Source of the DNA: Salinimonas chungwhensis DSM 16280
GTDB lineage: Bacteria; Pseudomonadota; Gammaproteobacteria; Enterobacterales; Alteromonadaceae
Assembly (NCBI RefSeq): GCF_000378185.1
Contig: NZ_KB899384.1
Coordinates: 4,320 to 68,319, forward strand
DNA: 64,000 bases
Direction: 5' to 3'
Part shown: positions 8,737 through 64,000 of the stretch, one piece after another
How the letters are laid out: each line of letters starts with the position of its first letter
Position numbering within the stretch: position 1 is the first letter of the stretch
Position numbers and translations under genes: made by a program
Notes under the pieces: model-generated
Database searches by the model: none
What the model was told of the DNA's origin: nothing
What the model saw: only the letters and a program-made list of their open reading frames with translations

Positions 8737-11265
8737 ATGAGCACCGTATCAAATCTGGCCTGGCGGCTGTTCAAACATGAAGCCCGTCGTGGTGAATTAA
8801 CCATTATCCTGGCGGCTATTATTTTATCAGTGGCCGCTGTGCTGTCTTTATCTCTATTCAGTGAGCGTTTGCAGGGCGCATTAACTGAACGCTCGGCCAG
8901 CTTTCTGGCGGCGGATCGTCAACTGCAGGCCCGCCAACCACTAAATGAAAAGTGGCTAAGTGCCGCTCGAGAACAATCGTTAGCTACGGCGCAGCAGGTT
9001 CAGTTGCGGTCTATGGTATTTGGACCGCGGGAAATGTCTCTGACAGACTTACGTGCGGTGAACAGCGATTATCCCCTTAAAGGCAATATTATCGTTGCTG
9101 ATGAGCCTTTCGGGGAAGAGCGCAGCGTTACTGGCGTCCCTGAACCGGGGCAAGCCTGGATAGACTCCCGTCTTTTTCAGCTACTTGAAGTCAGCATCGG
9201 GGACGATATTGAAATTGGTGAGGCTACCTTTACTGTCTCACGTGTGCTTTCGGAGATTCCCGATGCCGGTTTCAGTTTATTTAGTACTGATCCCATCGTA
9301 CTTATCCGCCAGGCAGATTTAGAAGAAGCCAATATTACCGGGCCCGGTAGCAGGGTGTCATACAAAGCGTATTTTACAGGTGAAGCGTCGCAGCTTGAAG
9401 CATATTACGAGTGGTTGAGACCACAACTCAACGATGAGATACACCGTTGGGAGTCGGTACAGGATGATCAGTCGCCCATTGGACGTTCCGTAGCCAGAGC
9501 CGGCCAGTATTTCTTGTTAGCAAGCTTACTGGCAATTGTGTTGGCAGCCGTATCTATTGCAGTGGCTGCGCAGCGTTATAGTCATCGTCATTATGACCCC
9601 GTGGCAATTATGAAGACCCTCGGCGCCAGTAAAAAAATGATTCGAAAAGTCTATATTTTACAGGTGATGTTCATTGCGATACTGGGCATCATCATTGGCA
9701 TCGCTGCCGGGATGCTTATTCAGCAGGCAGTGGTCAGTGCACTGGCCGACCGGGTTGAGGTAAGCCTTAGTGTGTGGCACTGGCGGCCTGTATTGATAGC
9801 GGTGTTTACCGGTGTCATCTGCGCTGTCTTGTTTTCGATGTATCCGCTGCTTCGGCTTTTCTCGGTTCCACCCTTACGGGTTCTGCGTCGGGATCTGGAC
9901 TCAAGCCTGAGCTCCAGAACCTTTCAGTTTGCCATATCCGGCACGGCGGTATTCGTGTTGATGTGGGCATACAGTCAGAATCTTAAAATCAGCGCCATTT
10001 TATTTGTTTCCGGGATTGTGCTGGTAGCCGCACTCATTGGTGTCACGTTTGGCTTGATACGCCTGGGGCGTTGGCTGGGAAGCAGCAAAATGGGGGCGTG
10101 GCAACTGGCCTGGGCGAGAATAAGACGTCGGGCCATGGATAACAGCGTTCAGTTGATAAGCTTTTCAATCACAATAATGTTGTTGTTAATCGTTCTGGTG
10201 ATGCGCAATGATATGATTGAACAGTGGCAGGCTCAGCTTCCTGAGGGGACGCCCAACTACTTCATGATCAATATTACCGAAAATGACCGTGACCGGGTTG
10301 AGTCTCATTTTGCTGACAATGATGTTCAGATCGAGCGCTTTTACCCCGTCGTCCGTGGGCGGTTTGTTTCTGTAAACGGCTCCCAGGTAAACACGGAGGT
10401 GACTAAAGAAGATGATCGCGATGAGGATGCAGAAGACAGTCAGGATGGTCTGGGCAGAGAGGCTAATCTAACCTGGACAAATCAACTGCAAAAAGAAAAT
10501 GAAGTTGTTGCGGGAAGCTGGCATGGGAATAACCAGGCGGATGAAAGTCAGCCCTACGAAGTTTCGGTAGAAAGTGAAGTCGCCGACAGGCTCGAAATAG
10601 AAATGGGTGATTTGCTGACATTTGATATTGGATCGCAGATGGTAGAGGCCAGAGTGACCAGCTTAAGAAAAGTAAACTGGCAAACTATGCAGCCTAATTT
10701 CTTTTTCATTTTGTCACCGGCGGCAATGACTGATTTTACACCCACCTACATTACCAGTTTCTATTTGCCTACAGCACAAAAGGCAGAGCTAACCAAACTG
10801 CTGAAGCCGTTTCCAGCGGTTACGCTGTTTGATGTGGATGCCAGAATCAATCAGCTTCGGGGCATCGTAGACCAGGTATCGCTGGCTGTGGAATTCATAC
10901 TGATACTTGTATTAGTTGCCGGCTCGCTGGTGCTTATTGCCCAGGTACAGGCCAGTATGGATGAGCGTCAACAGGAACTGGCCATTTTACGCACCCTGGG
11001 CGCCAAAGGCCGTCTGATTCGTTCCAGCGTTATTCTGGAGTTCGTGATAATTGGTGTAGTCGCTGGATTTATGGCTGCGCTGGCAAATGAGTTCAGCCTT
11101 TACCTGCTACAAACGCAGTTATTCAATATGACGCCTTCAATTCACTTTAGCTACTGGCTGATAGCACCGGTCACTGGCGCGCTGGTGGTAGGAGCTCTTG
11201 GCGCAATCGGATGCTGGCGTTTACTAACGCTCAATACCAGTGATTTGCTGCGAAAAATCATGTAA
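8737..11265 (+). CDS. ybbP: FtsX-family ABC transporter permease YbbP
   Basis: An 842-residue inner-membrane permease. It has an N-terminal membrane helix, a periplasmic domain, a first FtsX four-helix block around residues 255-430, a second large periplasmic domain and a C-terminal FtsX block with the PVAIMKTLGAS-like motif repeated as LAILRTLGAKG. An acidic insertion near residue 555 (EDDRDEDAEDSQDG) lies in the second periplasmic domain. With YbbA it forms a putative lipid or lipoprotein exporter, often linked to TesA. A strong terminator follows. Confidence 0.92.
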   Translation: MSTVSNLAWRLFKHEARRGELTIILAAIILSVAAVLSLSLFSERLQGALTERSASFLAADRQLQARQPLNEKWLSAAREQSLATAQQVQLRSMVFGPREMSLTDLRAVNSDYPLKGNIIVADEPFGEERSVTGVPEPGQAWIDSRLFQLLEVSIGDDIEIGEATFTVSRVLSEIPDAGFSLFSTDPIVLIRQADLEEANITGPGSRVSYKAYFTGEASQLEAYYEWLRPQLNDEIHRWESVQDDQSPIGRSVARAGQYFLLASLLAIVLAAVSIAVAAQRYSHRHYDPVAIMKTLGASKKMIRKVYILQVMFIAILGIIIGIAAGMLIQQAVVSALADRVEVSLSVWHWRPVLIAVFTGVICAVLFSMYPLLRLFSVPPLRVLRRDLDSSLSSRTFQFAISGTAVFVLMWAYSQNLKISAILFVSGIVLVAALIGVTFGLIRLGRWLGSSKMGAWQLAWARIRRRAMDNSVQLISFSITIMLLLIVLVMRNDMIEQWQAQLPEGTPNYFMINITENDRDRVESHFADNDVQIERFYPVVRGRFVSVNGSQVNTEVTKEDDRDEDAEDSQDGLGREANLTWTNQLQKENEVVAGSWHGNNQADESQPYEVSVESEVADRLEIEMGDLLTFDIGSQMVEARVTSLRKVNWQTMQPNFFFILSPAAMTDFTPTYITSFYLPTAQKAELTKLLKPFPAVTLFDVDARINQLRGIVDQVSLAVEFILILVLVAGSLVLIAQVQASMDERQQELAILRTLGAKGRLIRSSVILEFVIIGVVAGFMAALANEFSLYLLQTQLFNMTPSIHFSYWLIAPVTGALVVGALGAIGCWRLLTLNTSDLLRKIM

Positions 11266-36150: not shown

Positions 36151-38214
36151 ATGAAAAAAAAGATTTTAGCCATCACCGTTATACTTTTCTCTTCAGGCCA
36201 CGCATTAGGAAAGGCGCATCCAGAGCTTGAGCGTATCGAGATAAAAAGCCGTGAAATGAATCTTGTCGGAGATGCAATATCCGCCGCTGAGGGTGTGGTT
36301 GGTCAACAGGAAATAAGGTTACGACCAATATTCCGGACAGGCGATATTTTGGAATTTGTACCTGGTCTGGTTGCCACTCAGCACAGCGGCTCAGGTAAAG
36401 CGAACCAGTATTTTCTACGGGGTTTTAATTTAGACCACGGAACAGATTTTGCCACGATGGTCGATGGAATGCCGGTTAATATGCGTACTCATGGGCACGG
36501 TCAGGGCTATACCGATCTGAACTTCATTATCCCCGAAACGGTTCAGTCGCTGCGCTATCAAAAAGGGGTTTACTATACCGAAATCGGCGATTTTAGTGGC
36601 GCAGGCAGTGCCCAGCTATCCACTATGAAGGAAGCGCCAGCACCTGGCGTTGAGCTCGCCCTGGGTGAATACGGTTTTCAGCGGCTGGTGGGGATAGCAA
36701 ATGCTACCACCGATAATGGCCACTGGCTGGTAGCAGGAGAAAGACAATTTTATGATGGCCCCTGGCAAGATATTAATGAGGATATCAACAAAACCAATGC
36801 CCTGATCAAATGGTCTGATGACTTGGCCGGCGGAGAAGTATCCGTAAGTTTTATGGGCTATGACAATAGCTGGAATAGCGCCGACCAAATTCCACAGCGC
36901 GCTGTAACAAGTGGTCGCATAGATGAATTAGGCTCAATCGACCCAAGCGTCGGTGGTGAATCCCATCGATACAGCGTGAATACTGACTGGCAAAATGATA
37001 ACTGGCACTTTTCCGCGTACGCGATCGCTTATCAGTTGAATCTCTGGTCTAATTTTACATACTTTCTGGATAACCCGGAGCAGGGTGATCAATTTGAGCA
37101 GGTGGATGATCGTACAATCTATGGCGGTCAGCTGGACTATCAGTTTTCACATGCTGTTTATTCTAAACCTTCCTCTACAAAGGTTGGTTTCCAGACCCGG
37201 ATAGATGACATCGAAGAGGTAGGTTTATACGCTACGCGAGATCGCGTCAGGCTTGGTGTTACCAGAAGCGATGAGGTGCTACAAAGTAGTATCAGTAGCT
37301 TTATTCGAAATGAAACCCAATGGACATCGCAATTTCGCAGCGTATTGGGAGCACGGTTCGATTATTTTGACTTCTCGGTCGACGATCAGGTTGGTGTAAA
37401 TCGGTTTGGCATTGACTTATCGCCCAATAGTGGAGACGCCTCAGATGATATAACCTCGCTGAAAGGGAGTCTGATTTATACACTTTCCTCAATGTGGGAA
37501 GTTTATGGGGCAGCCGGCCAGGGCTTGCATTCCAATGATGCCCGCGGGACCACTATAGCGGTTGATCCCGCATCCGGGGAACGTGCTCCACAGGTTGATC
37601 CCGTTGTCCGGACTACCGGTTTTGAAACCGGTGTTCGTACTTTTATACCCGGTAAATTAAATGCGTCGATGTCCCTGTGGCAACTGGAACTGGATAGCGA
37701 ACTTTTATTTGTTGGCGATGCCGGTAATACAGAAGCAAGCCGACCCTCCCGGCGTAAGGGAGTAGAATTAACTGCTTATTATTACTTTCTTCCAGCATGG
37801 GCTCTGGACGTTGAATATGCGTATACCGATGCGCAATTTACGGATAGTCAGCCTGCTGGCAATCAGATACCCGGGGCAATCGAGCATGTGTTACAAGCCG
37901 GATTGAGTGCCGACTTTGAAAACGGATGGTATGGTGCCCTGCGCCTGCGTTATTTTGGTAATCGCCCACTTATTGAGGACGGTACAGTTGAATCAGATTC
38001 AAGCATATTAGTAAATTTTCAGACTGGCAGACAGTGGCAAAACTGGCAACTTGAACTGAGCGTGCTCAACCTTACCAATAGTAATGATCATGATATAGAT
38101 TATTTCTACACATCACGGCTTTCAAATGAACCGGCAGGCTCGCAAACAGACGATCTTCATTATCATGTTTTCGAGCCTCGTTCGGTTCGCATTTCTGCCT
38201 CGTATCGGTTTTAA
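36151..38214 (+). CDS. TonB-dependent outer-membrane receptor
   Basis: A 687-residue receptor. Signal peptide (1-21), TonB box-like LERIEIKSRE, plug domain (LEFVPGLVATQHSGSGKANQ starts near 70 and leads to FLRGFNLDHGTDF and DGMPVNMRTHGHGQGY), then a 22-strand barrel ending EPRSVRISASYRF with terminal Phe. The His-rich THGHGQG stretch of the plug is notable. Substrate unknown; it could be a metal chelate or small organic compound. No transport partner genes are adjacent. Confidence 0.88.
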   Translation: MKKKILAITVILFSSGHALGKAHPELERIEIKSREMNLVGDAISAAEGVVGQQEIRLRPIFRTGDILEFVPGLVATQHSGSGKANQYFLRGFNLDHGTDFATMVDGMPVNMRTHGHGQGYTDLNFIIPETVQSLRYQKGVYYTEIGDFSGAGSAQLSTMKEAPAPGVELALGEYGFQRLVGIANATTDNGHWLVAGERQFYDGPWQDINEDINKTNALIKWSDDLAGGEVSVSFMGYDNSWNSADQIPQRAVTSGRIDELGSIDPSVGGESHRYSVNTDWQNDNWHFSAYAIAYQLNLWSNFTYFLDNPEQGDQFEQVDDRTIYGGQLDYQFSHAVYSKPSSTKVGFQTRIDDIEEVGLYATRDRVRLGVTRSDEVLQSSISSFIRNETQWTSQFRSVLGARFDYFDFSVDDQVGVNRFGIDLSPNSGDASDDITSLKGSLIYTLSSMWEVYGAAGQGLHSNDARGTTIAVDPASGERAPQVDPVVRTTGFETGVRTFIPGKLNASMSLWQLELDSELLFVGDAGNTEASRPSRRKGVELTAYYYFLPAWALDVEYAYTDAQFTDSQPAGNQIPGAIEHVLQAGLSADFENGWYGALRLRYFGNRPLIEDGTVESDSSILVNFQTGRQWQNWQLELSVLNLTNSNDHDIDYFYTSRLSNEPAGSQTDDLHYHVFEPRSVRISASYRF

Positions 38215-47583: not shown

Positions 47584-48186
47584 CTATGCTTTAAATTTGC
47601 GTCTGCCCGACAAAGCCAGCAAGCCAAGGGCAATCAGGCCAATTGAACCAGGTTCAGGCACGGCAACACTGACAGCATCAATAAGGTTGCCTTTAGAGCC
47701 TCTGTTTAAAGAGGTGAATCGAACCTGTGAAAAATCAGATGTAGCCGCAAAAATCGTACTGAAGGTATCCCATTGCCGAACGCTGGTGTATTCAATATTT
47801 TGCGAGAAAAGCATATTATTTGTAGCCGCATCTAACACTTCAACCTTGAAAGACTCATTCAGGTTTTCTCTTGCAGCATATGCAAACTCAAGTGAGTAGG
47901 TTTGGCCTGCTTCAGAAGCAAAATTCTGAAAAATTGTCTGAAAGCCAGTGTTGTCTGAATTAAGTTCGATATGCTGTGAGCCGTCAAAAGCAGCAAATCC
48001 ATTCAAGTTATTCCAGATTTCTATCGTGTCGCCTGACCAACCGTTAACTTGATTTGCGCTAAAGCTGCTCCACCCTCCGGCATTGACGGTGTTTTCTTCA
48101 AAGCTACCATTTTTAATCAGGCTTGCATTGGCTACACCTGATAATAAAACGACACTACTTAATACTGCAGCAATCACCTTTTTCAT
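47584..48186 (-). CDS. PEP-CTERM sorting-domain protein
   Basis: A 200-residue exported protein. The signal peptide ends in VANAS (about 22), followed by a jelly-roll-like domain (LIKNGSFEENTVNAGGW, GWSGDTIEIWNN, GQTYSLEFAYAAR, RFTSLNRGSKGNLIDAVSV). The C-terminal sorting signal is VPEPGSIGLIALGLLALSG followed by RRKFKA. An exosortase should cleave it; none is in the window. It is predicted to be surface-bound or part of an extracellular matrix. GAGGGAAAATT precedes the start. Confidence 0.9.
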   Translation of the reverse strand: MKKVIAAVLSSVVLLSGVANASLIKNGSFEENTVNAGGWSSFSANQVNGWSGDTIEIWNNLNGFAAFDGSQHIELNSDNTGFQTIFQNFASEAGQTYSLEFAYAARENLNESFKVEVLDAATNNMLFSQNIEYTSVRQWDTFSTIFAATSDFSQVRFTSLNRGSKGNLIDAVSVAVPEPGSIGLIALGLLALSGRRKFKA

Positions 48187-50624: not shown

Positions 50625-51395
50625 TTAGCGTGCGGTCCAGCCGCCGTCTAAGACCATGGTCTGGGCGGTAATATTGCGGGCCGAATCACTCATGAGAAAC
50701 CGCGCTGTTCCGGCTAATTCCTCAATGCTGATAAACGCTTTTTTAGGCATCGGCTTGAGCATGATTTCATTGATCACCTCCTCTTCGCTGATCCCATTTT
50801 CCTTCGCCTGATCAGCAATTTGTTTCTCTACTAAGGGTGTTTTGACATAGGCAGGGCATAGTGTATTGATTGTAATATCCGCTGTACCAACTTCCAGTGC
50901 GACGGTTTTAGCCAGACCCAGTAAACCATGTTTGGCTGATACGTAGGCAGACTTGTAAGGTGAGGCGACCAGCGAATGGATCGAGCCAACATTAATTATT
51001 CGGCCAAAGTTTTGTGCTCGCATGTGCGGTAAAAAAGCCTGGGTAAGTAGCGCAGGCCCTACCAGCATGATATTAATCAACTGCTGCCATTTATCAGCCG
51101 GAAACGCCTCCAGGTTCGACACATGCTGTATGCCAGCATTATTGATAAGTATATCCACCGGCGTCTTACTGAGTTTATCTGGCAGAGCTGACACTGCCTG
51201 TGTGTCGGTTACGTCAATGCCAACAGCGCTCGCGCTAAGTCCTTTATCCGACAATACGTGGGCCGCCTTTTCAGCCGCCTGCTCGTCAATATCTGCTAAA
51301 ATAACATGATGGCCATCGCCAGCCAGGCTTTGCGCAATACCAAACCCTATACCGCTGGCGCCACCGGTGATGAAAATATTTTTTGCTTGCGTCAT
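50625..51395 (-). CDS. bdhA: 3-hydroxybutyrate dehydrogenase
   Basis: A 256-residue short-chain dehydrogenase that oxidises 3-hydroxybutyrate to acetoacetate with NAD. TGGASGIGFGIA binds the cofactor, NNAG and the catalytic Ser138, Tyr151 and Lys155 (SPYKSAYVSAKHG) are in place. The C-terminus (CPAYVKTPLVEKQI, LDGGWTAR) fits BdhA. It is the last gene of the ester-degradation operon, 11 bp after the depolymerase gene, and would handle the imported monomer. Confidence 0.9.
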   Translation of the reverse strand: MTQAKNIFITGGASGIGFGIAQSLAGDGHHVILADIDEQAAEKAAHVLSDKGLSASAVGIDVTDTQAVSALPDKLSKTPVDILINNAGIQHVSNLEAFPADKWQQLINIMLVGPALLTQAFLPHMRAQNFGRIINVGSIHSLVASPYKSAYVSAKHGLLGLAKTVALEVGTADITINTLCPAYVKTPLVEKQIADQAKENGISEEEVINEIMLKPMPKKAFISIEELAGTARFLMSDSARNITAQTMVLDGGWTAR

Positions 51396-51406
51396 AAGTA
51401 ACCGTC

Positions 51407-52387
51407 CTATTGCCGGGCAAATGAATCGATGAATGCTTTAACTGCTTTAATCTGTGCGCCGTCACGCGTGGCATAGTCAGCGCCGGTATAACCCCACCAG
51501 TCCCAACAGCCCTGTGGGTTAAGTGGCATAAATAGCGACTTTTTTGTTTGTGGGTAGATAACCACCAGATTGTTATCGTCAGCCCAACGGTTGAACCCTG
51601 CGTTGTCTACATAAGCCTTACCGACTTCATTGGCATACTGATCACAGCCGTGAAATGACACGTGAACCTGGCAGTCGTTGCCTTCTTTACAGCTTTTAGG
51701 CACGTACGCGTAGCCTGTTTTTGCCAGAGTTTCAGCATTTTTACCGCCAATACCAGCCTGGTCAAAGGTAACGACTTCGCCGGTGAGGGTATCATCAGGC
51801 GCTGTTACATTTTCCAGCAGATGCGATAACGCTTTGCCAGCAGCATCATAACCACAGTCGCCGATATAGGGGGAGGCCGAACTGTCGCACGTCACACCGC
51901 TATTACGGGTAGGGAATAAGTGGCCGAAGGGCTTATCACGAACATATTCAATAGTGTCTGCATTGAGCCAGCTTTGATACTGCTTGTGCAGCGTATCAGT
52001 GACACTTTGCGCGACCCGTTCATCTTTTGTGCCATGGAAAAGCCAGACACGGTGATTTTTCAGATTATTCAAATCGGCTATTTTTCCCTCATCAGCCCAT
52101 TTCTTAGCTTTTGAGGCGAACACATCTAGGGGGATTTCGGTTTCGGATTTGTCAACACAGGCACCCAGTGCAATCGTAATATCATTTTGCGCACAATAGT
52201 AGGGGCCGGCACTAATGATGGCCGCGCCTTTAACCCAGTCACTATGGGCTATATGAAACTGATTCGCCATGTATCCGCCAGAAGATAAACCAGAGACAGT
52301 GACATTGCGGGTGTCGAGATTCATTGTTGCTGCCGCAGGTGCAGCAGAAAACATGGCCAGCCCAAGTGTTATTGTATATCCTTTCAT
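51407..52387 (-). CDS. Secreted polyhydroxybutyrate-depolymerase-like esterase
   Basis: A 326-residue alpha/beta hydrolase with signal peptide (MKGYTITLGLAMFSAAPAAA). The lipase box GLSSGG (33-38) has Ser35 as nucleophile, and the oxyanion motif HVSFHGCDQ is diagnostic of extracellular PHB depolymerases. HGTKDERV likely includes the catalytic Asp. Six or more Cys suggest disulfides. No substrate-binding or linker domain follows, so it may act on oligomers or amorphous polymer in the periplasm or at the surface. ATG overlaps the preceding stop. Confidence 0.87.
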   Translation of the reverse strand: MKGYTITLGLAMFSAAPAAATMNLDTRNVTVSGLSSGGYMANQFHIAHSDWVKGAAIISAGPYYCAQNDITIALGACVDKSETEIPLDVFASKAKKWADEGKIADLNNLKNHRVWLFHGTKDERVAQSVTDTLHKQYQSWLNADTIEYVRDKPFGHLFPTRNSGVTCDSSASPYIGDCGYDAAGKALSHLLENVTAPDDTLTGEVVTFDQAGIGGKNAETLAKTGYAYVPKSCKEGNDCQVHVSFHGCDQYANEVGKAYVDNAGFNRWADDNNLVVIYPQTKKSLFMPLNPQGCWDWWGYTGADYATRDGAQIKAVKAFIDSFARQ

Positions 52388-53592
52388 TCGTTCCTCGCTG
52401 ATTTATCTGCTAAAAAGGCTTTGAGCCGTTCACCCTGTTCCTGTATATCTAACACACCTTCAAGGTGACCGAGCGAGCCTGTAAGTTCCTGATAATGACT
52501 GATTTTACCTGCTTGTTGTAACTGCTCGTGAGTATGGGCAGAGAGATACGGCATTAACAGCAGATCACTGGTAGCAGGCAAAAACAAACTTTTTGCCTGA
52601 ATTTTGCTCAATCCTGCCTGCAGGCTTTTCTGATGGCCGGCAACGAATAACTGGCATGCGCGAACTAGATACAGCAAATGATTAGCATCCATTTTGTCAG
52701 CGCGACTGCGGGCGCGGTCTTCCAGCCAGGTCACGATAGAGTGCGATTGACGGATATCGTTTAAAGGTGCAGATTCAAGGGCCTGATAATCTAATTGCTC
52801 CCCCTGTTGATTAAAATATTGCGGATGCAGCGCTTGCTGTGTAATCAACATCAGGGAGGCTACCAAACCTTCAGTGGGCGGTGCCTGTTGGCTATAATTA
52901 CCATCAGACCATTTTGGATCCAGCTTGATGGGGCGCGCCCAGTGTTCCAGCGCCGCAGTGGTCCAGGCATCACTTTCACCGGTTCCGATAATTGCTGCCA
53001 CACGCGGTACCCATTCAGGATATGCACTGGCCCAGTCAAGTGCCTGCATAGAACCCATCGACGGACCAATAACTGCATGCAGTTTGCCGATCCCCAGCGT
53101 CTCCAATACCGCTTTTTGCACGTTGACAAAATCCCGGATAGTCACCACTGGAAAATCAAGCCCATAGGGCTTACCGGTTGCCGGATTTATACTAGCCGGC
53201 CCGGTAGTGACAACATGCTCATCATACGCAGACAAATTGGCCAGAGAATCCACACTGATAACAAAATATTGTTCGGTATCAATCGGCTTGCCAGGGCCAA
53301 TGATGGCGTCCCAGTAGCCAGGCTGAGTGTCGTCTGCACTATATTTTCCGGCAGCATGAGAAGAACCAGAGAAATAATGGGTGATAAGAACAACATTATC
53401 CTTACTTTCATTAAGCTCGCCGTAGCTTTCCCAGCCCACTTTTACCTCGGGTAAAGTCTGCCCTGAAAAGAGCGGAAAATCTGTTGCTGTAAAGACCTTT
53501 TTTTCGACCAGCGGCAATGCTTGAGCAGGCCAAACACTTACCAAAATCACAATGGTAAACAGCGCCGGCAGATTGACTGCAAATCTCATCAT
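52384..53592 (-). CDS. Exported MetX-fold alpha/beta hydrolase
   Basis: A 402-residue protein with an N-terminal signal peptide ending WPAQA (about 25). It resembles homoserine O-acetyltransferase: GPSMGSMQALDWA with nucleophile Ser178, FPVVTIRDFVNVQKAVLETLGI, and GSLGHLEGVLD near the end with the likely catalytic His. Export is unlike biosynthetic MetX, and the locus lacks methionine genes, so it is probably an esterase for hydroxyacid oligomers. Its stop overlaps the depolymerase start by four bases. Confidence 0.82.
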   Translation of the reverse strand: MMRFAVNLPALFTIVILVSVWPAQALPLVEKKVFTATDFPLFSGQTLPEVKVGWESYGELNESKDNVVLITHYFSGSSHAAGKYSADDTQPGYWDAIIGPGKPIDTEQYFVISVDSLANLSAYDEHVVTTGPASINPATGKPYGLDFPVVTIRDFVNVQKAVLETLGIGKLHAVIGPSMGSMQALDWASAYPEWVPRVAAIIGTGESDAWTTAALEHWARPIKLDPKWSDGNYSQQAPPTEGLVASLMLITQQALHPQYFNQQGEQLDYQALESAPLNDIRQSHSIVTWLEDRARSRADKMDANHLLYLVRACQLFVAGHQKSLQAGLSKIQAKSLFLPATSDLLLMPYLSAHTHEQLQQAGKISHYQELTGSLGHLEGVLDIQEQGERLKAFLADKSARNE

Positions 53593-53607
53593 CTGTAATT
53601 CCTTTTT

Positions 53608-54903
53608 TTAAAACAGTGTAAAGAGCGTAATAGCCATTCCTAAACCGATAAGCGGGGTGACCACAGTCAAGGCAGCCACCGGTCCGTAGGCTGCCTGATG
53701 GGTTTCACGACAGATAGCTCTGATGGTTGTGACAACATAGCCGTTGTGAGGCAGCGAGTCGAGTGCACCTGAAGAAATAGAAACGATACGATGCAGTTCT
53801 TCAGGTTCAACACCCTGGTCAAGATAATGCGGGGCAACCAGCGGCAGGACAATGGCCTGGCCACCGGATGCTGACCCGGTAAGACCTGCAATCACACTCA
53901 CTGCAATGGCGGCGCCTAGCAGCTCGTTGCCAGGAATTTGCGTCATTAAATCAACGGTTGACATAAACGCGTCGGTATTTTTTGCAATGCTGCCAAAACC
54001 GACTACGGCTGCGGTATTACCGATAGCAACCAGCGCGCCTGTGGTGCCTGTATTAATCGCCTTGGGCATATCCTGAAAGTGGCGGTAATTAACAATCATC
54101 AAGGCCAGCACGCCGCCGGCCAGAGCGACAATAAGTGCATACTGGGCAATAGCATCATGTAAAAAGAAGGAGAGCAGTAATACCACCAGCAGCGGAATCA
54201 GCCCTGTTATAGGATTTGGATAATCCCGTTCAGGAATATCCGGATCGTGCTCTCTGGCATCAAATACTTCACCGTCAGCTACGGCTTTACCAATCATACG
54301 CTTGAGCCACCAATAGCCAAAACATGCCATGAATACCGCCACTACCAAACTGACTTCCCAGGCAGCAAATGGTGAGGTTCCCAGATATTTAATGGGGATC
54401 CAATTCTGAATCTCCGGTGAACCTGCGGAGGTCATCGTAAAGGTTACCGAGCCAAAGGCCAGTGTCGCCGGGATAAAGCGGCGAGGCAGGTTGGCATCTT
54501 TAAACAGACTAAGAGCCATGGGGTAGACAGAAAACGCCACGACAAAAAGGCTTACGCCGCCATAGGTTAAAATTGCGCAGGCCATCACTACTGCTAGGAC
54601 GGCTTGTTTGAAGCCGAGTTTATCTACAATCCAGCGCGCCAATGAGTCTGCTGCGCCGGTATCTTCCATAAATTTACCGAAAATAGCGCCCAGCAAAAAC
54701 ATGAAAAACCAGGCGGCGATAAACCCGGAAAACCCATTCATGTATAACGTGACAAAGTTTTGTTCACCGGCAAACAGAGGAATGTTATTGGTAAATGCAA
54801 CGATGAGTGCACACAGCGGGGCAGCAATGAATAAATTCATCCCCCTGATGGTTAAAACTATTAGCAATACCAGGCCCAGCAGCAGACCAGTCATACTCAA
54901 CAT
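53608..54903 (-). CDS. GntP-family permease
   Basis: A 431-residue inner-membrane permease with about 12 hydrophobic segments (SMTGLLLGLVLLIVLTIRG at the start, GALFTM-type repeats, and AIVLPLVAPH with SSGALDSLPHNG). GntP proteins import gluconate, and related members take up 3-hydroxybutyrate or other hydroxyacids. ATG 54903 has AAGGAA seven bases upstream and is preferred to 54987, which would overlap the operator array. It leads the operon and gives it its import step. Confidence 0.87.
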   Translation of the reverse strand: MLSMTGLLLGLVLLIVLTIRGMNLFIAAPLCALIVAFTNNIPLFAGEQNFVTLYMNGFSGFIAAWFFMFLLGAIFGKFMEDTGAADSLARWIVDKLGFKQAVLAVVMACAILTYGGVSLFVVAFSVYPMALSLFKDANLPRRFIPATLAFGSVTFTMTSAGSPEIQNWIPIKYLGTSPFAAWEVSLVVAVFMACFGYWWLKRMIGKAVADGEVFDAREHDPDIPERDYPNPITGLIPLLVVLLLSFFLHDAIAQYALIVALAGGVLALMIVNYRHFQDMPKAINTGTTGALVAIGNTAAVVGFGSIAKNTDAFMSTVDLMTQIPGNELLGAAIAVSVIAGLTGSASGGQAIVLPLVAPHYLDQGVEPEELHRIVSISSGALDSLPHNGYVVTTIRAICRETHQAAYGPVAALTVVTPLIGLGMAITLFTLF

Positions 54904-54980
54904 AATGCGTTTCCTTGTATTTGTTCTGTGACCGCAGAGCCTCAAAGGAACCCAATTATTCTGACCATAGCTTTCGCGAT

Positions 54981-55023
54981 TTGACATAGTACGATGGTAC
55001 TACGTACTAAGGTACTAGTTACC
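54981..55023. promoter_or_regulatory. GTAC repeat array between the permease and TonB receptor genes
   Basis: GTAC occurs at 54989, 54997, 55004 and 55012, i.e. spacings 8, 7 and 8, giving two copies of a 15-bp period, and ends in the near-palindrome GGTACTAGTTACC. A TTGACA at 54981 may be the -35 of the receptor promoter, which would put the array over the promoter. It lies between divergent operons and looks like a shared operator. Confidence 0.6.
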
Positions 55024-55111
55024 TGTGTCAAAAAAACCTCTACATTAATTTTCGACCGCATCCTTTAAGAAAGCGAATTCTAAAAGATTGTTACAATAAT
55101 AGGGACCTGTT

Positions 55112-57442
55112 ATGAAACACACCCATACAAAATCGCTTGGTTTCAGCCGTACACTGTGCGCGGCTGCTGTAGCTACGGCTTTTACCTACGCGCCGGCTAC
55201 ACTTGCTCAGGATAATAATGCCGAAGAACAAGAACAAAGAGGCAAGCTTGAAAGAATAGAAGTGACTGCTCGAAAAACCGTGGAAACGCTGCAGGAGGTA
55301 CCTGTGGCAATCACATCACTGGGTGCTGCGGAGCTTACCGAAAAAGGTATCAGTGTACTGACCGAAGTACAGCAATTTTCGCCCAACACCACGTTGCAGA
55401 CCAGTCGTGGTACTAATTCGACCTTAACCGCCTTTATTCGAGGGCTGGGTCAGCAGGATCCATTGTGGGGCTATGAGCCGGGTGTCGGCATCTATATCGA
55501 TGATGTCTATATTGCTCGACCGCAGGGTGCCGTTCTGGATCTATTAGATGTGCAGCGTATTGAGGTACTGCGTGGTCCGCAGGGAACGCTGTATGGAAAA
55601 AATACAATTGGTGGTGCGGTAAAATATGTAACCAAAGAAATGACGGGAGACCCTCAACTGAATATTGAAGGCACCGTCGGCAGTTACAGCCAGCGTGATG
55701 TTAAAATAACCGGTCAGTACCCACTGATTGATGACAAGGTTTATCTTGGGTTTGGTTATGCAAACCTTAATCGTGATGGATTTGGTGAATATCTGATATT
55801 GGCGCAGCCTGACCAGGACAACGAAAACTATAACAAAGATTTGTGGGCGGCCCGCTTGTCACTGGAAGTCCATGCAACTGATGATTTATTTTTCCGCTTT
55901 GGCTGGGACAAAACGGAAGATACCTCCAACGCTAAAGGGGGGTATCGGCTGCTACCAAGCTTGCGCACAGAAGCGCCGCAACCGGATTCTGTGTATGACT
56001 CTTACTCCAGCTTGCCAACCTGGAACAAGGTTGAGTTAGACGGCTACAGCTGGATGGCCCGATACGATATTAATCCGTCTATGCAGGTTAAATATATCGG
56101 TTCACACCGTGAAAGTTACTCGCCTACCAATATCGACTTTGACAATACGCAACTGGATATCTTTGATGTTCCGGCGATTTACGAAGATGAGAATGACACC
56201 CACGAACTGCAATTTAATTATAGCGGGGACGGGATGACGCTGGTTAGTGGTTTGTACTATTACGACGGCGAGTCATGCGGGGTTTTTGATGCTATCCTTG
56301 GTGTGCTGGGCCGCGACTTTGCCGCTGCCGGCGTATTTCCTGAAGGAACCCCTGGGTTCACTCGTGAAGTATCAGGGTGTAATAACAGTGAAAGCTGGGC
56401 GGGTTATGCGCAGGTAAACTATGACATTTCGGATAAATTATCGGTATCAGTAGGCGCCCGATATACTGATGAAGAAAAACAGGCTACTGTCAATAATGGT
56501 ACTGTGCTTTACAATCTATACCCTGAAACCGGCTGGATAGATGGTTTTGTGCGCCCGGACGAAGTGCCGATTCCCCAGGTTTTGGGGACCGATACTGACA
56601 ACGACGGTATCTTAGATGCGCCTGCATCCCAAAGCTGGTCACGGTTTACCCCGCGTTTAGGTGTGGAGTACTACTATTCCCAGGATGTGATGTTCTTTGC
56701 CAGTTATGCCCAGGGATTTAAATCCGGAACATTTAACCCACGAGCTACCACCAACGAGCCGGGTGTCGACCCTGAAATTGTGGATTCATTCGAAGTGGGA
56801 ATGAAGAGTGATCTGACTGACAGCTTCCGTTTAAATACGACCCTGTTTAGTTACGATCACCAGGACCGTCAGTATATCGGTATTGAAGGCAACGCCAATG
56901 ATCCTACAGCGCTTCAGCAGCGTTTGCGCAATGCAGCGGAAACTGCAGCAAAAGGTATCGAAATCGAGGCGACCTATGTAGCCACTGATAATCTTTCGTT
57001 TGATGTTACGTACGGGTATATCGATTTTGAAATAAAAGAAAACAACGCAATTCCTCCATTGATTGGTTTAGCCAGTACACCGGAAAATACACTGAATCTG
57101 GCGGCTACTTACTCGATGGACACGGAGTACGGCTTCTTTACTTTCAACACGAACTATTATCACCGCGATGAGTATCTGGTTTTTGAGACCAGCGATCTTA
57201 TTCAGCAGGATGCTTACGGCATGCTCAACGCAAGCCTGAGTTGGGAGAGTGTTGAGGGCGACTGGTACGGCGGTCTTCACTTCAAAAACCTGACTGATGA
57301 AGAGTATATTGTTGGCGGTTATGACTTTGTGGAACGTAATGAGGATGGCAGTCTGGCACCGGGGCTTGGCAACGATACAACGCTGATCAGCTACTACGGT
57401 GATCCGCGGACCGTACATTTAACAGTAGGCTATCGTTTCTAA
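55112..57442 (+). CDS. TonB-dependent outer-membrane receptor
   Basis: A 776-residue receptor with a signal peptide ending TLAQD (about 33), TonB box-like IEVTARK, plug domain (TAFIRGLGQQDPLWGYEPGV and the VEVLRGPQGTLYGKNTIGGAV type segment) and a barrel ending DPRTVHLTVGYRF. It belongs to the large TonB receptor group used by marine bacteria for polymers and hydrophobic compounds. Divergent from the ester operon and sharing its operator, so it may import oligoester fragments. A strong terminator follows. Confidence 0.88.
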   Translation: MKHTHTKSLGFSRTLCAAAVATAFTYAPATLAQDNNAEEQEQRGKLERIEVTARKTVETLQEVPVAITSLGAAELTEKGISVLTEVQQFSPNTTLQTSRGTNSTLTAFIRGLGQQDPLWGYEPGVGIYIDDVYIARPQGAVLDLLDVQRIEVLRGPQGTLYGKNTIGGAVKYVTKEMTGDPQLNIEGTVGSYSQRDVKITGQYPLIDDKVYLGFGYANLNRDGFGEYLILAQPDQDNENYNKDLWAARLSLEVHATDDLFFRFGWDKTEDTSNAKGGYRLLPSLRTEAPQPDSVYDSYSSLPTWNKVELDGYSWMARYDINPSMQVKYIGSHRESYSPTNIDFDNTQLDIFDVPAIYEDENDTHELQFNYSGDGMTLVSGLYYYDGESCGVFDAILGVLGRDFAAAGVFPEGTPGFTREVSGCNNSESWAGYAQVNYDISDKLSVSVGARYTDEEKQATVNNGTVLYNLYPETGWIDGFVRPDEVPIPQVLGTDTDNDGILDAPASQSWSRFTPRLGVEYYYSQDVMFFASYAQGFKSGTFNPRATTNEPGVDPEIVDSFEVGMKSDLTDSFRLNTTLFSYDHQDRQYIGIEGNANDPTALQQRLRNAAETAAKGIEIEATYVATDNLSFDVTYGYIDFEIKENNAIPPLIGLASTPENTLNLAATYSMDTEYGFFTFNTNYYHRDEYLVFETSDLIQQDAYGMLNASLSWESVEGDWYGGLHFKNLTDEEYIVGGYDFVERNEDGSLAPGLGNDTTLISYYGDPRTVHLTVGYRF

Positions 57443-57459
57443 CCAATAGCTTATAGATG

Positions 57460-57497
57460 AGCCCCTGCGACATGCTTGTTGCAGGGGCTATATTTCC
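57460..57497 (+). terminator. Terminator after the TonB receptor
   Basis: AGCCCCTGC pairs with GCAGGGGCT over a 12-base loop, followed by a mixed T-rich tail TATATTTCC. A moderate terminator. Confidence 0.7.
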
Positions 57498-57599
57498 TTT
57501 CCGTCAGCCGTTTAATTGGCAAAGCTTCTTCCCCTCAGCCTTAGTTTGCATTAACATCGGTGTTATTGTTTTCTAACAAGGTAGTAACACAAGTCTCGC

Positions 57600-58241
57600 A
57601 TGTCATCTCATGTATTAATTGCCGATGATCATCCGTTGTTCCGCGCCGCTATGTGTCAGGCACTGGCCGGAATAGTCGGGCCCTCTCCATTGCAGGCAGC
57701 TTCTGTGGAAGAAACCCTCTCTTTACTGGCAGAGGATGAAAATGTGGATCTTGTCTTTTTAGATGTAAAAATGCCGGGCAATGAGGGGCTTACCGGACTA
57801 AGTGAAATTCGTTCGCGTTTCCCTAATGTTCTTATCGTAATTGTATCTGCCCACGATGACCCGGTACTTATTCATAAAGCTATCGATTTAGGCGCATGCG
57901 GATATATCCCCAAATCCTCTTCGCTTGAGACAATTTCCGCAGCGGTAACCCAAATTTTAGATGGAGAGCAATGGCTGCCAGCAGATATGAGTATGCCGGT
58001 AGTCAGTACGGAAGATATAAATAATCAGCAACTGGCTGACCGTATTGCGTTACTTACGCCCCATCAGTTCAAGGTATTGAAATTGCTTTCCCGGGGGATG
58101 TTAAATAAACAAATCGCCTATGAACTCACTATTTCAGAGTCTACCGTAAAGCAACATGTTTCAGCGATTTTGCGAAAATTAAACATGATGAACCGGACCA
58201 AGGCCGGTGTCGCCTTTCGACACATGATGGATGTCGAATAG
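57600..58241 (+). CDS. LuxR-family response regulator
   Basis: A 213-residue NarL-type regulator: receiver with HVLIADDHPLF and phospho-acceptor Asp55 in LVFLDVKMPG, Lys in YIPKSS, and a LuxR helix-turn-helix from about 150 (LTPHQFKVLKLLSRGMLNKQIAYELTISE in part, then TVKQHVSAILRKLN). It resembles CrbR/ErdR regulators of acetate and short-chain acid use. It lies next to the ester locus and could control it; the hybrid kinase at the window end is a possible partner. Confidence 0.87.
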   Translation: MSSHVLIADDHPLFRAAMCQALAGIVGPSPLQAASVEETLSLLAEDENVDLVFLDVKMPGNEGLTGLSEIRSRFPNVLIVIVSAHDDPVLIHKAIDLGACGYIPKSSSLETISAAVTQILDGEQWLPADMSMPVVSTEDINNQQLADRIALLTPHQFKVLKLLSRGMLNKQIAYELTISESTVKQHVSAILRKLNMMNRTKAGVAFRHMMDVE

Positions 58242-59831: not shown

Positions 59832-61472
59832 TCAAATCGTAAATCGTCCCACATTTTCCCCAATACCGTGCGAGACTCGATTTATCTTTTGGCTGACACC
59901 GGCTGCAAGCTTAACTGCGTCTAAGGCTTGATGGCTTAATGTATTGAGCGAGGTAATATTAGTGTTCACTTCGCTGACGACTTCACTTTGCTGCTCGGTA
60001 GCTGAAGCAATCTGATAGATGCGATCGTTAGCATTTTCTACAGACACAGTCACCAGTTGGAGGGATTCTGACACACTGGCAGAGACTTGCACCACCTCAT
60101 CCATTTGACTGGCGCCACTTTCTATTGCTTCTACCGCTTCACTGACACCCCTTTCAAGTTTAACTACCATTTGATTGATATCTTCCGTAGATTGCTGAGT
60201 ACGGCTAGCCAGCGAACGAACCTCATCCGCAACCACTGCAAAACCACGTCCCTGATCGCCCGCTCGTGCAGCTTCGATAGCTGCATTTAACGCCAGCAGA
60301 TTGGTCTGTTCAGCGATCTCACGAATAACATTCAGTAACGAAGTGATATTTTTTGATTCAACAGCAAGTTTTTGAATGACCTCGCTGGCATGAGAAATGG
60401 TTGAGGACATCTGAGAAATACTTTGGGCTGAGTTATCCACAGCGGTGCGCGAAGAGGCAGTTTCCCGGGTAGCATTTTGTGTATCCTGTAATGCATTTTG
60501 CGAGTTTTCTGCAACCTCTTTTACCGCATGACTCAGCTCGCTGACTGCGGTAGAAATTTGTTCCAAGTTAGTATTCTGTTGGGCTGTTGTCTGTTCAGAA
60601 GATACTGCCGACTCAGCCAGTTCACTAACAGAGAGAGTCAGGGCATTAGCATCATTTTTAATCGCTGAAATAAGTGTATGAAGATTGTCCATTAACGCAT
60701 TAAATGCGGTAGCCAAAACGGTTAGCTCATCTTTACCTGAGGTATCCAGCCGTTGGCGTAAATCTCCTTCCCCCTCGCTGATTTCTTCGATCATTGAGGT
60801 AAGTTTATTAAGACGATAGGTCACTAATCTGGGGCCAAATATAATGCTCCCGATACAGGCTAAAATTGTTAATACAACAGCAATGATGAGGTACCACATT
60901 TGTTGGTCGCTGGATGCCAGGCTTTCTTGGGTAAGATTGACCGAGAGTGTTTGGATGGATTCGCCAGCACGATCGTAATTGTTACGCAGCGTATCAAAAG
61001 TGCGTTGACCTTCGTTATTAAAAAGAACAGATGCTTCACCAAGGTTGCCCTGGGTAATGAGAGTGATGATATTATCCGTCACAGCTTTCCAGGCGGTGAA
61101 ATCGTCAGCGAACTGGCTGATACTTTCTTGTAAACTTGGATAGTCACTCATCATTGACCGAACGGTATTCATCCGGTCCCTGGCTTGCTGAGCATTCTCG
61201 CTATACACATTAATATACTTGTCAGCCTGGCCTGTATTGAGGCTTGTTGCAATCATCAGATTCTGCAGCGCGCCCTGAGCCTGATACAAGTCACGGTCAG
61301 CATTAAGCGACAGGTTCTGCGCTTCGCTAAAAACATTGGAAATTGTTGCGGTATTTACACTTAGAAATCGACTGTTGGATATGCTTATGGCACTCACCAC
61401 TAATACCAAAAGTGAAATAAATGCCAGTGGCACGGCAAACTTCTGCCGAATGGATAAATTATCGAACTTCAT
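59832..61472 (-). CDS. Methyl-accepting chemotaxis protein
   Basis: A 546-residue transmembrane chemoreceptor. TM1 is at about 11-31, followed by a four-helix periplasmic sensor ([20 protein letters not shown]), TM2 at about 190-210, HAMP ([20 protein letters not shown]), and a signalling domain with tip ending [23 protein letters not shown] 61472 has AAGG ten bases upstream; a longer frame reaches 61562. Ligand unknown. It diverges from the porin gene. Confidence 0.9.
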
Positions 61473-61761
61473 GATATTTACGCCTTGATTTAGAGTGAGC
61501 AAGCTATCGGGATTGACAGTTTTTGCTAAGGATAGTCGCTTTCTGTATGACCAATTTAACAATCTGCTTTACACGAGAAACATTAGCCGCACTTTATTCG
61601 CTCAACAATTCAACTTTCTACTAATTTTAATATGCAATTCAGTTCTCCTTATAAACGAAAGTTCAACTGCACAATAATTTGTTTGCTCTACACTACTTTC
61701 CGATGTTGCCAAAAATATAGCAGTTCACATTGATATTTAAGGTATGAAGTGAGAAGTAAAC

Positions 61762-63057
61762 ATGCGTAAAAAGTGGGTAGGAAGTAAATTAGCAAGCTGG
61801 GGAGTGGTGGCGTTATGCAGCGTGTCCGTTTACGGTCAGGCCGCAGAGCCAACCTTCGATGTTAGTGGTTCATGGCGATTGCGCCTTGAAGCGCTTAATA
61901 ATCCTATATTTCCTGTTGAAGAAGGAATGCGGACTCAACATAACCAGCGGCTTTCCTCCCGTGTTCTGGTTAAAGGTGAGATGCACTGGGATGCTGTTGA
62001 TGCGGTAGTTGAAGTTCAGGATTCTCGCGCCTGGCTGGACAATAACGATCCCACTTTAACCGCCTCGCAAGTCAATACATTAGAACCGCTTCAATTCTTC
62101 TTGCGCTATTCACCTGACCAGATTGAATACATTGATAACCTTACAGTAGGGAGGGTTGCACTGGATCACGGTAGCCGCAGGCTGATGTCAAAAGGAGTCT
62201 TTAGAAACGCAATTAATAACTTTGACGGTGTATACACTGACGGACATTGGCAGAACTGGCAGGTGCGGGCATTTTATTTGTTACCGGTTAGTCGATTACC
62301 CTCAGATAAACAACTAGTGGCGGATAATGCCCGAGCATTTGATAAGAGTTTCAACGACCGGCGCTTCTTTGGCTTATTTGCTCATAGTGACGATAAACAA
62401 TGGAATTTACACAGCTACTGGCTAAAAGAGCAAGACAGTCCAGAGTTAGCCACAAAAAACCGGGACCTCTACACGTTAGGAGTCGAGTTCACCGAGACAC
62501 TGGCAGAGGTATGGCTGGCTAATATCGAAGTGATAGGCCAGACCGGCACATCGCGGCAGTCATCCAGTCCCGCTGATACTACCGATTTAGATCATCGAGG
62601 CTGGCTTGTACACGCAAGTTTGGGACGTGCAATTACCGCCAATACCGTGTTGAAAGGGGAGCTTGATCTGATCAGTGGCGACAATGACAGATCGGACAAT
62701 ACCATTCACGACTTTGACGGCTTATATGGAGTCAGACGTTTTGATTTTGGGCCCACCGATGTCTACCAGGCATTACCCCGAAGAAATCTCACCGCGCTGG
62801 GTGCCAGAAGTGTAAGTAAATTTAATGGTAAGCAAAATCTGATGCTGGGGTATAAATCGTTTTGGTACCAGCGAGCACCGCAAGGGGTAGACGATTTTAT
62901 CGGCCATCAGGTTGAAGCACGCTTGCGTATCCAAACTACGCCTTCGCTAAGGCTGGAGTGGGGCGGCGCATACTTACTTAAAGGTGAAGGCTTCGAACGA
63001 GGCGCTTATCCGGATAATTCAATTTACGCCTATACAGCGTTTCTATACAAATTTTGA
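61762..63057 (+). CDS. AlgE-like alginate export family outer-membrane protein
   Basis: A 431-residue protein with signal peptide (to about AAEP, residue 29) and an alginate-export beta-barrel domain: FDVSGSWRLRLEALNN, VEVQDSRAWLDNND, VGRVALDHGSRRLMSKGVFRN, NFDGVYTDG, and the C-terminal DNSIYAYTAFLYKF with terminal Phe. Such domains export or take up anionic polymers. No alginate genes are nearby, so the substrate is open. GAAGTGAGAAGTAAAC precedes the ATG, weakly. Confidence 0.8.
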   Translation: MRKKWVGSKLASWGVVALCSVSVYGQAAEPTFDVSGSWRLRLEALNNPIFPVEEGMRTQHNQRLSSRVLVKGEMHWDAVDAVVEVQDSRAWLDNNDPTLTASQVNTLEPLQFFLRYSPDQIEYIDNLTVGRVALDHGSRRLMSKGVFRNAINNFDGVYTDGHWQNWQVRAFYLLPVSRLPSDKQLVADNARAFDKSFNDRRFFGLFAHSDDKQWNLHSYWLKEQDSPELATKNRDLYTLGVEFTETLAEVWLANIEVIGQTGTSRQSSSPADTTDLDHRGWLVHASLGRAITANTVLKGELDLISGDNDRSDNTIHDFDGLYGVRRFDFGPTDVYQALPRRNLTALGARSVSKFNGKQNLMLGYKSFWYQRAPQGVDDFIGHQVEARLRIQTTPSLRLEWGGAYLLKGEGFERGAYPDNSIYAYTAFLYKF

Positions 63058-63185: not shown

Positions 63186-64000
63186 TTAAACCGGACCTCT
63201 AAAATAACCCAGTTCCCGCATTATAAGATGCTTTAAGGCGGCGGGCTTGACCGGTTTAGACAGATAAAACAGATCATTTTGTTGAGCCTGCTCACGGATC
63301 CCTTCGCTACGGTTTGCAGTGATGAGAATACCTGGCACATTTAACTGCCAGTACTCCCGCAATGTGGTCGCGGCTGCAATACCTGTCTGACCAAAATCCA
63401 GATGATAATCTACGATAAGAATATCCGGTGCACGAGGGCATATTAACAATGCCTGATCAACGGTTGCAGCCGATGTTATTGTTGCGCCCCATTGCGACAG
63501 TAATAATGTCATAGCCTTTACAATCTGCGGGTCATTTTCCACCAGCAAGACTGATGTTTTAGCCAACATTGCAGAGGGTTGAAGAGGGGAGTTTTCCACT
63601 ACCTCTGAGTATGGGGTTTTATCTTTGCAGCGGGGTAGAAGAACGCGAAAAACAGTGCCTTTATTTATCGACGATTGCAAATCCAGAGGATGGTGCAACA
63701 GCTCACTCATTCGCTCTACTATTGTTAATCCCAGGCCCAGCCCCTGATTTTTATGATGAGGGGAAAGCTGCAAAAATTCAGCGAATATATTTTGCTGTTG
63801 GTCGACAGGAATACCCGGCCCTGTATCGTAAACACATAAAGCAACTTGCCCCGGGCCCAGTCGCCTCATCCCTATTATCACGCCACCATGATCGGTATAA
63901 CGTACTGCATTGGACAGCAGGTTTTGTGCAATCCGACGCAATAATTGTTTATCGGAGCGCACCACAAGCGACGTTTTTACATAGCGCAAACGCAGATTCT
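63186..64000 (-). CDS. Hybrid sensor histidine kinase, C-terminal part (runs off the window)
   Basis: The frame is open to the window edge on the minus strand, so only the last 270 or so residues are seen. The ATPase domain has QNLLSNAVRYTDHGG, VYDTGPGIPVD and GLGLGLTIVERM. A C-terminal receiver follows (VLLVENDPQIV, phospho-acceptor Asp in LIVDYHLD, Lys in YLSKPVKP). The sensor part lies beyond 64000. It may be a partner for the LuxR regulator at 57600, as in CrbS/CrbR pairs, but this is only inferred from type. Confidence 0.87.
   Translation of the reverse strand, partial: NLRLRYVKTSLVVRSDKQLLRRIAQNLLSNAVRYTDHGGVIIGMRRLGPGQVALCVYDTGPGIPVDQQQNIFAEFLQLSPHHKNQGLGLGLTIVERMSELLHHPLDLQSSINKGTVFRVLLPRCKDKTPYSEVVENSPLQPSAMLAKTSVLLVENDPQIVKAMTLLLSQWGATITSAATVDQALLICPRAPDILIVDYHLDFGQTGIAAATTLREYWQLNVPGILITANRSEGIREQAQQNDLFYLSKPVKPAALKHLIMRELGYFRGPV

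Follow-up and report, generated by a model that had tools for sequence, protein, structure and literature searches.

Genes and features of the locus

The window analysed here is a 64,000-nucleotide stretch of contig NZ_KB899384.1 of Salinimonas chungwhensis DSM 16280 (contig positions 4,320 to 68,319, forward strand; all coordinates below are window positions unless stated), and its subject is a six-gene cluster at 50625-58241 that had been proposed, in an initial annotation made from the sequence alone, to serve use of the polyester poly(3-hydroxybutyrate) (PHB) and of 3-hydroxybutyrate (3HB). The six genes named there are all present at the coordinates given, and the gene order was borne out: genes for a 3-hydroxybutyrate dehydrogenase (BDH), a depolymerase, an E22-family protein and a permease form an operon, termed the permease operon, divergent from a TonB receptor gene that is followed by a CrbR-like regulator gene. 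That annotation was right about the six-gene set and overlooked a larger, distal depolymerase, a probable sensor kinase from 63186 onwards and a palindrome in the divergent promoter. The features are as follows.

50625..51395, minus strand: 3-hydroxybutyrate dehydrogenase (bdhA type); TIGR01963, 343 bits, cut-off 307
51407..52387, minus strand: probably exported single-domain type-2 short-chain-length polyhydroxyalkanoate depolymerase, 326 aa; NF050059, PDB 2d80/2d81
52384..53592, minus strand: exported E22-family MetX-like esterase, proposed 3HB-oligomer hydrolase; NF005262, PDB 5jkf/5jkj
53608..54903 (longest frame from 54987), minus strand: inner-membrane permease, distant GntP relative, proposed 3HB importer; weak GntP and CitMHS matches
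54987..55015, no strand: two palindromes, proposed regulator sites; GTACGATGGTAC at 54989-55000 and GTACTAAGGTAC at 55004-55015
55112..57442, plus strand: TonB-dependent outer-membrane receptor, proposed importer of PHB hydrolysis products; PF00593 and PF07715
57600..58241, plus strand: CrbR/ErdR-like LuxR-family response regulator; PF00072 and PF00196, NF041830 below cut-off
63186..64000, running past the window, minus strand: 3' part of a CrbS-like hybrid histidine kinase, proposed cognate sensor; domain profiles of the full protein

NCBIfam profiles placed the BDH in the PHB_DH family and confirmed the depolymerase-like esterase of the initial annotation as a type-2 short-chain-length (scl) polyhydroxyalkanoate (PHA) depolymerase (NF050059, 397 bits over a cut-off of 280, residues 21-321). 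The latter aligns with the PHB depolymerase of PDB entries 2d80 and 2d81 (about 1e-53, residues 21-317), with the serine motif, the aspartate and the histidine, which we take to be the catalytic residues, retained. It consists of a single domain, leaving no space for a substrate-binding domain. A signal peptide was recognised by eye, at an export score of 1.87 against the threshold of 2.0 in a crude hydrophobicity test, and the same test found an export-like N-terminus in 34 of 43 type-2 depolymerase frames. A second depolymerase, of type 1 and 632 aa, is encoded elsewhere in the genome (contig C3, positions 8270-10168 of fetched stretch L156; 182 bits, cut-off 150); in this genome search, run at 1e-15, the type-1 model missed the type-2 gene of the window. 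The genome also holds a PHA synthase gene (PF07167 match) with phasin-like and PhaR-like neighbours recognised by eye, so this strain probably stores PHB as well.

The third protein of the operon matched the NCBIfam profile NF005262, "E22 family MetX-like putative esterase", at 607 bits (cut-off 450), while the homoserine acyltransferase (MetX) models all scored below their own cut-offs. Similarity to the solved "Esterase E22" extends over the full length (residues 28-395; PDB 5jkf, 4e-170; 5jkj, 5.5e-169), and the protein has GHLEG where the acyltransferases 2pl5 and 2b61 have GHD. An export-like N-terminus was found by the crude test in 75 of 79 E22 frames, compared with 1 of 49 BDH frames. 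No paper on the role of E22 was found in a search of the open-licence literature; the protein is placed here in a PHB locus.

The GntP assignment of the permease was upheld at the level of the general Pfam family (36.1 bits, gathering score 22.5, with a weak CitMHS match as well) and not at that of the NCBIfam gntP subfamily, whose cut-off was missed (36.5 of 292.75 bits). Its start most likely lies at 54903 (MLSM...) rather than at 54987: a conserved palindrome occupies 54987-55002, and the longer frame would start on its very first base. A sequence-profile search gave no convincing solved relative; an AlphaFold model of middling confidence (pLDDT 69) resembles anion transporters of the INDY/DASS type, which suggests a fold of that kind.

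The receptor has the plug (PF07715) and TonB barrel (PF00593) domains. A 687 aa frame at 36151-38214 resembles another TonB receptor by eye and was not listed by the PF00593 genome search. The regulator consists of a receiver (PF00072) and a GerE domain (PF00196); it is CrbR/ErdR-like in family, as annotated, and falls short of the ErdR model itself (NF041830, 200 of 390 bits). Two further such regulators are encoded in the genome, one beside acs on another contig, and none of the three reaches the NF041830 cut-off. The kinase that begins at 63186 is 1136 aa long in full, with SSF (25.6 bits over 22.8), PAS_7, HisKA, HATPase_c and receiver domains. It scores 1173-1495 bits with the kinases beside this cluster in three relatives, and a CrbS-like gene lies within the fetched stretch in 27 of 78 loci found through E22 and in 35 of 60 named loci found through the permease. 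From this linkage, the kinase is the probable sensor of the locus and would be paired with the regulator.

Conservation of gene content and promoter in relatives

Conservation was assessed in 147 genomes of the same family, own genome included, at E-value thresholds of 1e-60 (E22), 1e-80 (permease) and 1e-150 (receptor); these genomes are related, so that the counts are not independent events, and the Fisher tests ignore relatedness. E22 was found in 79, the permease in 87 and the receptor in 104 genomes (the last spanning 41 of the 52 sampled genera). All three were present in 77 genomes, E22 and permease in 2, permease and receptor in 4, permease only in 4, receptor only in 23, and none in 37. 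All 79 E22 genomes thus hold the permease, and 77 of them also the receptor (Fisher, 8e-33 for E22 with permease, 8e-16 for E22 with receptor). Co-occurrence of receptor and operon was one of two checks set beforehand, and it was passed; the proposed tie between them finds strong support in these comparisons. Arrangement is conserved too: among the 78 E22 loci of relatives, E22 and permease are co-directional in 73, permease and receptor divergent in 69, and receptor and regulator together in 68.

Gene content around this core varies. A type-2 depolymerase was found in 42 of the 78 E22 loci, as counted within the fetched locus stretches, in 39 with BDH and in 3 without BDH nearby. The other loci hold BDH and CoA-transferase-like genes (named by eye) without depolymerase (8), an acyl-CoA ligase (11), the core only (12), E22 alone (4) or E22 with BDH (1); for the core-only type, 10 of the 12 genomes have BDH no more than 25 kb from the receptor. 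The ligase gene sits between E22 and permease (locus L083 and ten similar loci), and the one ligase scored reached 712 bits with the 3-(methylthio)propionyl-CoA ligase model, under its cut-off of 822. Five E22 loci are without the permease: in four (L133-L136), a BDH-depolymerase-permease cluster divergent from receptor and regulator, with no E22 in it, lies elsewhere in the genome, and in the fifth (L147), permease and receptor are on another contig. The 60 named loci include 39 with E22, depolymerase and BDH, among them loci of Alteromonas, Aestuariibacter, Bowmanella, Lacimicrobium and Paraglaciecola; the nearest permease in this set, from Salinimonas profundi, is 92% identical.

The receptor is linked to PHA hydrolases in a second way. 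Of the 27 receptor genomes without E22, 26 encode, no more than 8 kb from the receptor, a type-1 scl-PHA depolymerase that scores over cut-off, the sole exception having its receptor at a contig start; just one E22 genome has such a gene at that distance. Among the 23 of these 26 type-1 loci that were fetched, the type-1-like gene is directly upstream of the receptor on the same strand in 21 and a few kb away in 2, and four type-1 proteins scored singly gave 182-261 bits, all above the cut-off of 150. BDH (TIGR01963, E 1e-70) was found in 90 of the 104 receptor genomes versus 7 of the 43 others; in 81 of those 90, it is no further than 25 kb from the receptor. BDH is missing from 14 receptor genomes, namely all 11 with the acyl-CoA ligase and 3 that are 78-85% complete. 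Judged from this comparative genomics, the receptor is assigned to the PHB locus.

A scan for the permease in 369 class genomes gave 4 matches at 1e-110, of which 2 are the own genome and one of the same genus. Outside the same-family set, Simiduia aestuariiviva (L221) has the permease, a 3HB-oligomer hydrolase (PF10605, 558 bits, cut-off 27) and a CrbS-like kinase in a single run, from which the gene of a 42% receptor homologue diverges; the hydrolase lies directly downstream of the permease, the position that E22 has here, and belongs to a different protein family. A gammaproteobacterial metagenome-assembled genome (MAG; L211) has a 3HB-oligomer hydrolase (PF10605, 406 bits, cut-off 27), a divergent 36% receptor homologue and a 59% BDH, and in both this MAG and Simiduia, CrbS-like, CrbR-like and BDH-like genes accompany the permease and receptor homologue. 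The permease of two Bacteriovoracaceae/Halobacteriovoraceae MAGs (L210, L212) has a PHB-esterase-like gene next to it (PF10503, Pfam-tested for L210 only) and a BDH-like gene (40-43%) nearby. PF10605 had no match in the 147 same-family genomes, a result that does not prove absence, since control genomes gave none either.

The divergent promoter contains TAGTACGATGGTACTA at 54987-55002 and the second site at 55004-55015. The pattern GTACN4GTAC was found in 65 of 69 scorable divergent promoters of relatives in the E22 set (36/39, 6/7, 11/11 and 12/12 in the four locus types with permease), and in 117 of 126 divergent promoters overall (shuffle mean 0.6, maximum 3), this total being made up of the 69 of the E22 set, 51 of the named set, the window itself and 5 more, with some genomes counted twice. 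The palindromes are proposed, from this conservation, as binding sites of a regulator. They are flanked by TGTGACCGCA (54927-54936) and GACCGC (55054-55059), which occur in 53 and 57 of the 126 promoters, respectively; for each of the CoA-transferase, ligase and core-only types, one promoter was inspected and had neither. The own acs promoter holds TACGACTATCGTCTTA, as seen by eye.

Within the genome, TAGTACNATNGTACTA occurs once without mismatch. One site with two mismatches, noticed afterwards, lies 62 bases before the start of the distal 632 aa PHB depolymerase; a near-site on contig C6, within a gene that looks flagellin-like by eye, was put down to chance. For distal depolymerases of relatives, 17 of the 24 over-cut-off genes outside the type-1 receptor set were fetched, together with 2 below cut-off: the strict site precedes 3 of these 19 (shuffle mean 0.16, maximum 2), and GNACNAAAGTNC, a pattern chosen after seeing matches, precedes 9 of 19 (shuffle mean 0.13, maximum 2). 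The type-1 operons have a related promoter motif, present in 22 of 23 loci altogether. Its core CTAAAGT was first spotted by looking at promoters, and the count that followed kept 3 loci aside; CTAAAGTNSCAT was found in 19 of 20 promoters (shuffle mean 0.01, maximum 1) and nowhere else in the 358 kb of sequence from these loci, and all 3 held-out loci have it at -72/-73. Two other candidates were rejected for these operons: the strict GTACN4GTAC and near forms, seen before the operon in only 1 of 22 loci (L112), and the first wording GNACNAAAGTNC, seen in 11 of 20 promoters and 0 of 2 held-out.

Several neighbouring genes were recorded alongside. A chemoreceptor-like gene (by eye, 59832-61562) and a gene for an alginate-export-type outer-membrane protein (PF13372, 78 bits, 61762-63057) follow one another between cluster and kinase, and a short exported-looking protein at 47584-48186 ends in a VPEP...RRK tail, presumably of the PEP-CTERM-like kind. 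An isocitrate lyase-like gene (by eye) adjoins the regulator in 3 of the 78 E22 loci and in L131 (seen in L131 and L095), which would fit growth on a substrate that yields acetyl-CoA. One further genome (G091, locus L141) has a permease copy divergent from a regulator and a CrbS-like kinase, beside a different large TonB-receptor-like gene (by eye) and on another contig than its type-1 depolymerase-receptor pair.

Proposed function and alternatives

With a probability of about three in four, we read the cluster as a locus for the use of PHB oligomers, which would handle a polyester in the way that polysaccharide utilisation loci handle glycans. That it serves PHB is very probable: the assignment to PHB and 3HB made in the initial annotation has strong support from comparative genomics, through the family matches, the linked PHA hydrolases and BDH. 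Extracellular PHB would be cut by a secreted depolymerase, probably the 632 aa distal enzyme, with the type-2 enzyme encoded here as a possible second; the TonB receptor would take 3HB oligomers into the periplasm, where exported E22, perhaps with the type-2 depolymerase, would cleave them to 3HB; and the permease would carry 3HB into the cytoplasm for conversion by BDH to acetoacetate. A CrbS/CrbR-type system, apart from the acs-side one, would sense a carboxylate (3HB or acetoacetate would fit), and the regulator, acting at GTAC-N4-GTAC-like sites, would switch on the permease operon, the receptor and the distal depolymerase. Oligomer import and the role proposed for E22 are inferences that fit the 3HB-oligomer hydrolase found beside the permease in two other genomes.

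Several observations weigh against parts of this scheme. The acyltransferase 3i1i has GHM at the GHLEG/GHD position, so the lack of an aspartate after the catalytic histidine is by itself insufficient to call E22 an esterase. Four of the 78 genomes encode E22 at a distance from the cluster, which persists there without it. The 11 E22 loci with an acyl-CoA ligase, in genomes of 2.4-2.9 Mb, have neither type-2 depolymerase nor BDH at the locus; these genomes gave no BDH or type-1 depolymerase match at all, and 9 of the 11 receptors are just 47-50% identical, so that the substrate may differ there. The ligase version could belong to an oligomer scavenger or to a user of a different ester. Apart from those of the three close relatives, the kinase scores only 614-793 bits with ten other kinases from relatives, little above its score with the own acs-linked kinase (610 bits). 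For TAGTACNATNGTACTA, the two-mismatch set, with 9 further places in the genome, equals the reversed control (10 versus 10). Finally, 3HB dimers and trimers might pass ordinary porins, which leaves it debatable whether a TonB receptor is needed.

Some of these points bear on a broader function, in which the locus would serve short-chain hydroxyacid esters at large (other polyesters, hydroxyacyl lipids, algal esters), PHB being one of several substrates or limited to some lineages. The 12 of 78 loci with only E22, permease, receptor and regulator nearby, the 11 with a ligase and the family name of E22, which says merely "putative esterase", agree with this; against it stand the type-2 depolymerase with BDH in 39 of 78 loci, BDH with CoA-transferase-like genes in 8, the proximity of BDH to the receptor in most core-only genomes, and the type-1 depolymerase and 3HB-oligomer hydrolase partners, which point to PHB, and on this balance we regard the broader function as improbable.

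Two accounts of the receptor are each much less probable still. As a siderophore-type receptor, it would be a mere neighbour of a PHB/3HB operon: its best NCBIfam match is the TonB siderophore family (155.6 bits, below the cut-off of 223.5), and its solved relatives are siderophore, heme and bacteriocin receptors. This account was rejected on the linkage of the receptor to different PHA hydrolases in different lineages; the shared promoter palindrome also speaks against it, as does, if orthology is assumed, the rise of a PHB-linked TonB transporter of Alteromonas macleodii under carbon limitation (PMC7190382). Alternatively, the receptor might act at the surface, binding PHB or oligomers in order to sense them or to hold the hydrolase, while products enter through porins as monomers or dimers, which would suit the small size of the 3HB monomer and dimer and a single-domain type-2 enzyme that surface docking would help; exported E22, and the 3HB-oligomer hydrolase beside the permease elsewhere, suggest instead that oligomers are cleaved within the envelope.

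PHB is widespread as a storage polymer of bacteria and is also sold as a bioplastic. If oligomer import holds, a dedicated outer-membrane importer would let marine bacteria take polyester fragments selfishly, as they do polysaccharides, rather than digesting all to monomers outside; E22 MetX-like esterases would receive a testable role, marine PHB use a marker gene set, and CrbS-type sensor kinases a further substrate. A wider generalisation, for and against which we see the odds as even, is that a modular polyester locus, equipped with a symporter-kinase two-component system and a DNA site of its own, is standard in this marine family. The receptor-regulator pair would be combined with E22 and a type-2 depolymerase or with a type-1 depolymerase, and in related sets elsewhere with a 3HB-oligomer hydrolase; PHB oligomers would be imported actively, and small-genome members, with only E22, acyl-CoA ligase, permease, receptor and regulator, would live on oligomers released by others.

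Comparison with known systems

Marine polysaccharide utilisation loci combine a TonB receptor, exported hydrolases, an inner-membrane transporter, a catabolic enzyme and a local regulator in one locus. The cluster described here has the same kinds of components, with a polyester in place of a glycan as proposed substrate and a CrbR-like response regulator. Such loci are defined by carbohydrate-active enzymes or a SusC/SusD pair, and family profile scans of the six genes found no carbohydrate enzyme and no SusD-like protein; the cluster would work like a polysaccharide utilisation locus and is not one.

The link between the receptor and PHB is not wholly new. Manck et al. (2020) predicted PHB as the substrate of the TonB transporter MASE_06600 of Alteromonas macleodii ATCC 27126, which lies next to a PHB depolymerase and was up by 1.59 log2 under carbon limitation; the transporter appears in the main text in one sentence and one table row (PMC7190382). 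A TonB transporter beside a PHB depolymerase is common to both cases, with orthology to the present receptor assumed. E22, the permease, BDH, the two-component system, the promoter palindrome, the distribution and the swapped hydrolases go beyond what the main text of that paper gives for MASE_06600; one piece of the present reading had thus been predicted before. In titles and the beginnings of abstracts of the open-licence literature, no other description of such a locus was found; PMC10882806 and PMC9671461 mention both PHB and TonB and, at the passages concerned, do not link them.

The putative sensor-regulator pair shares with CrbS/CrbR (MxtR/ErdR) a symporter-domain hybrid kinase and a LuxR-family regulator. 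Published CrbR (ACTU) sites such as TACTACCATCGTCGAAT and TACGACTAAAGTCTAAA (PMC5715377) form an inverted repeat that, judged by eye, has the same 4-base spacer and inner bases as the palindrome, with half-sites of GAC/GTC there versus GTAC here; the motif of the type-1 operons resembles the CrbR site as well. The present pair differs from CrbS/CrbR in being separate from the acs-linked pair of the genome, in its linkage to PHB genes and in a regulator that scores under the ErdR cut-off. A substrate of its own would have a precedent, since CrbS-type pairs can serve another substrate, as RpuS/RpuR serves pyruvate (PMC9100948).

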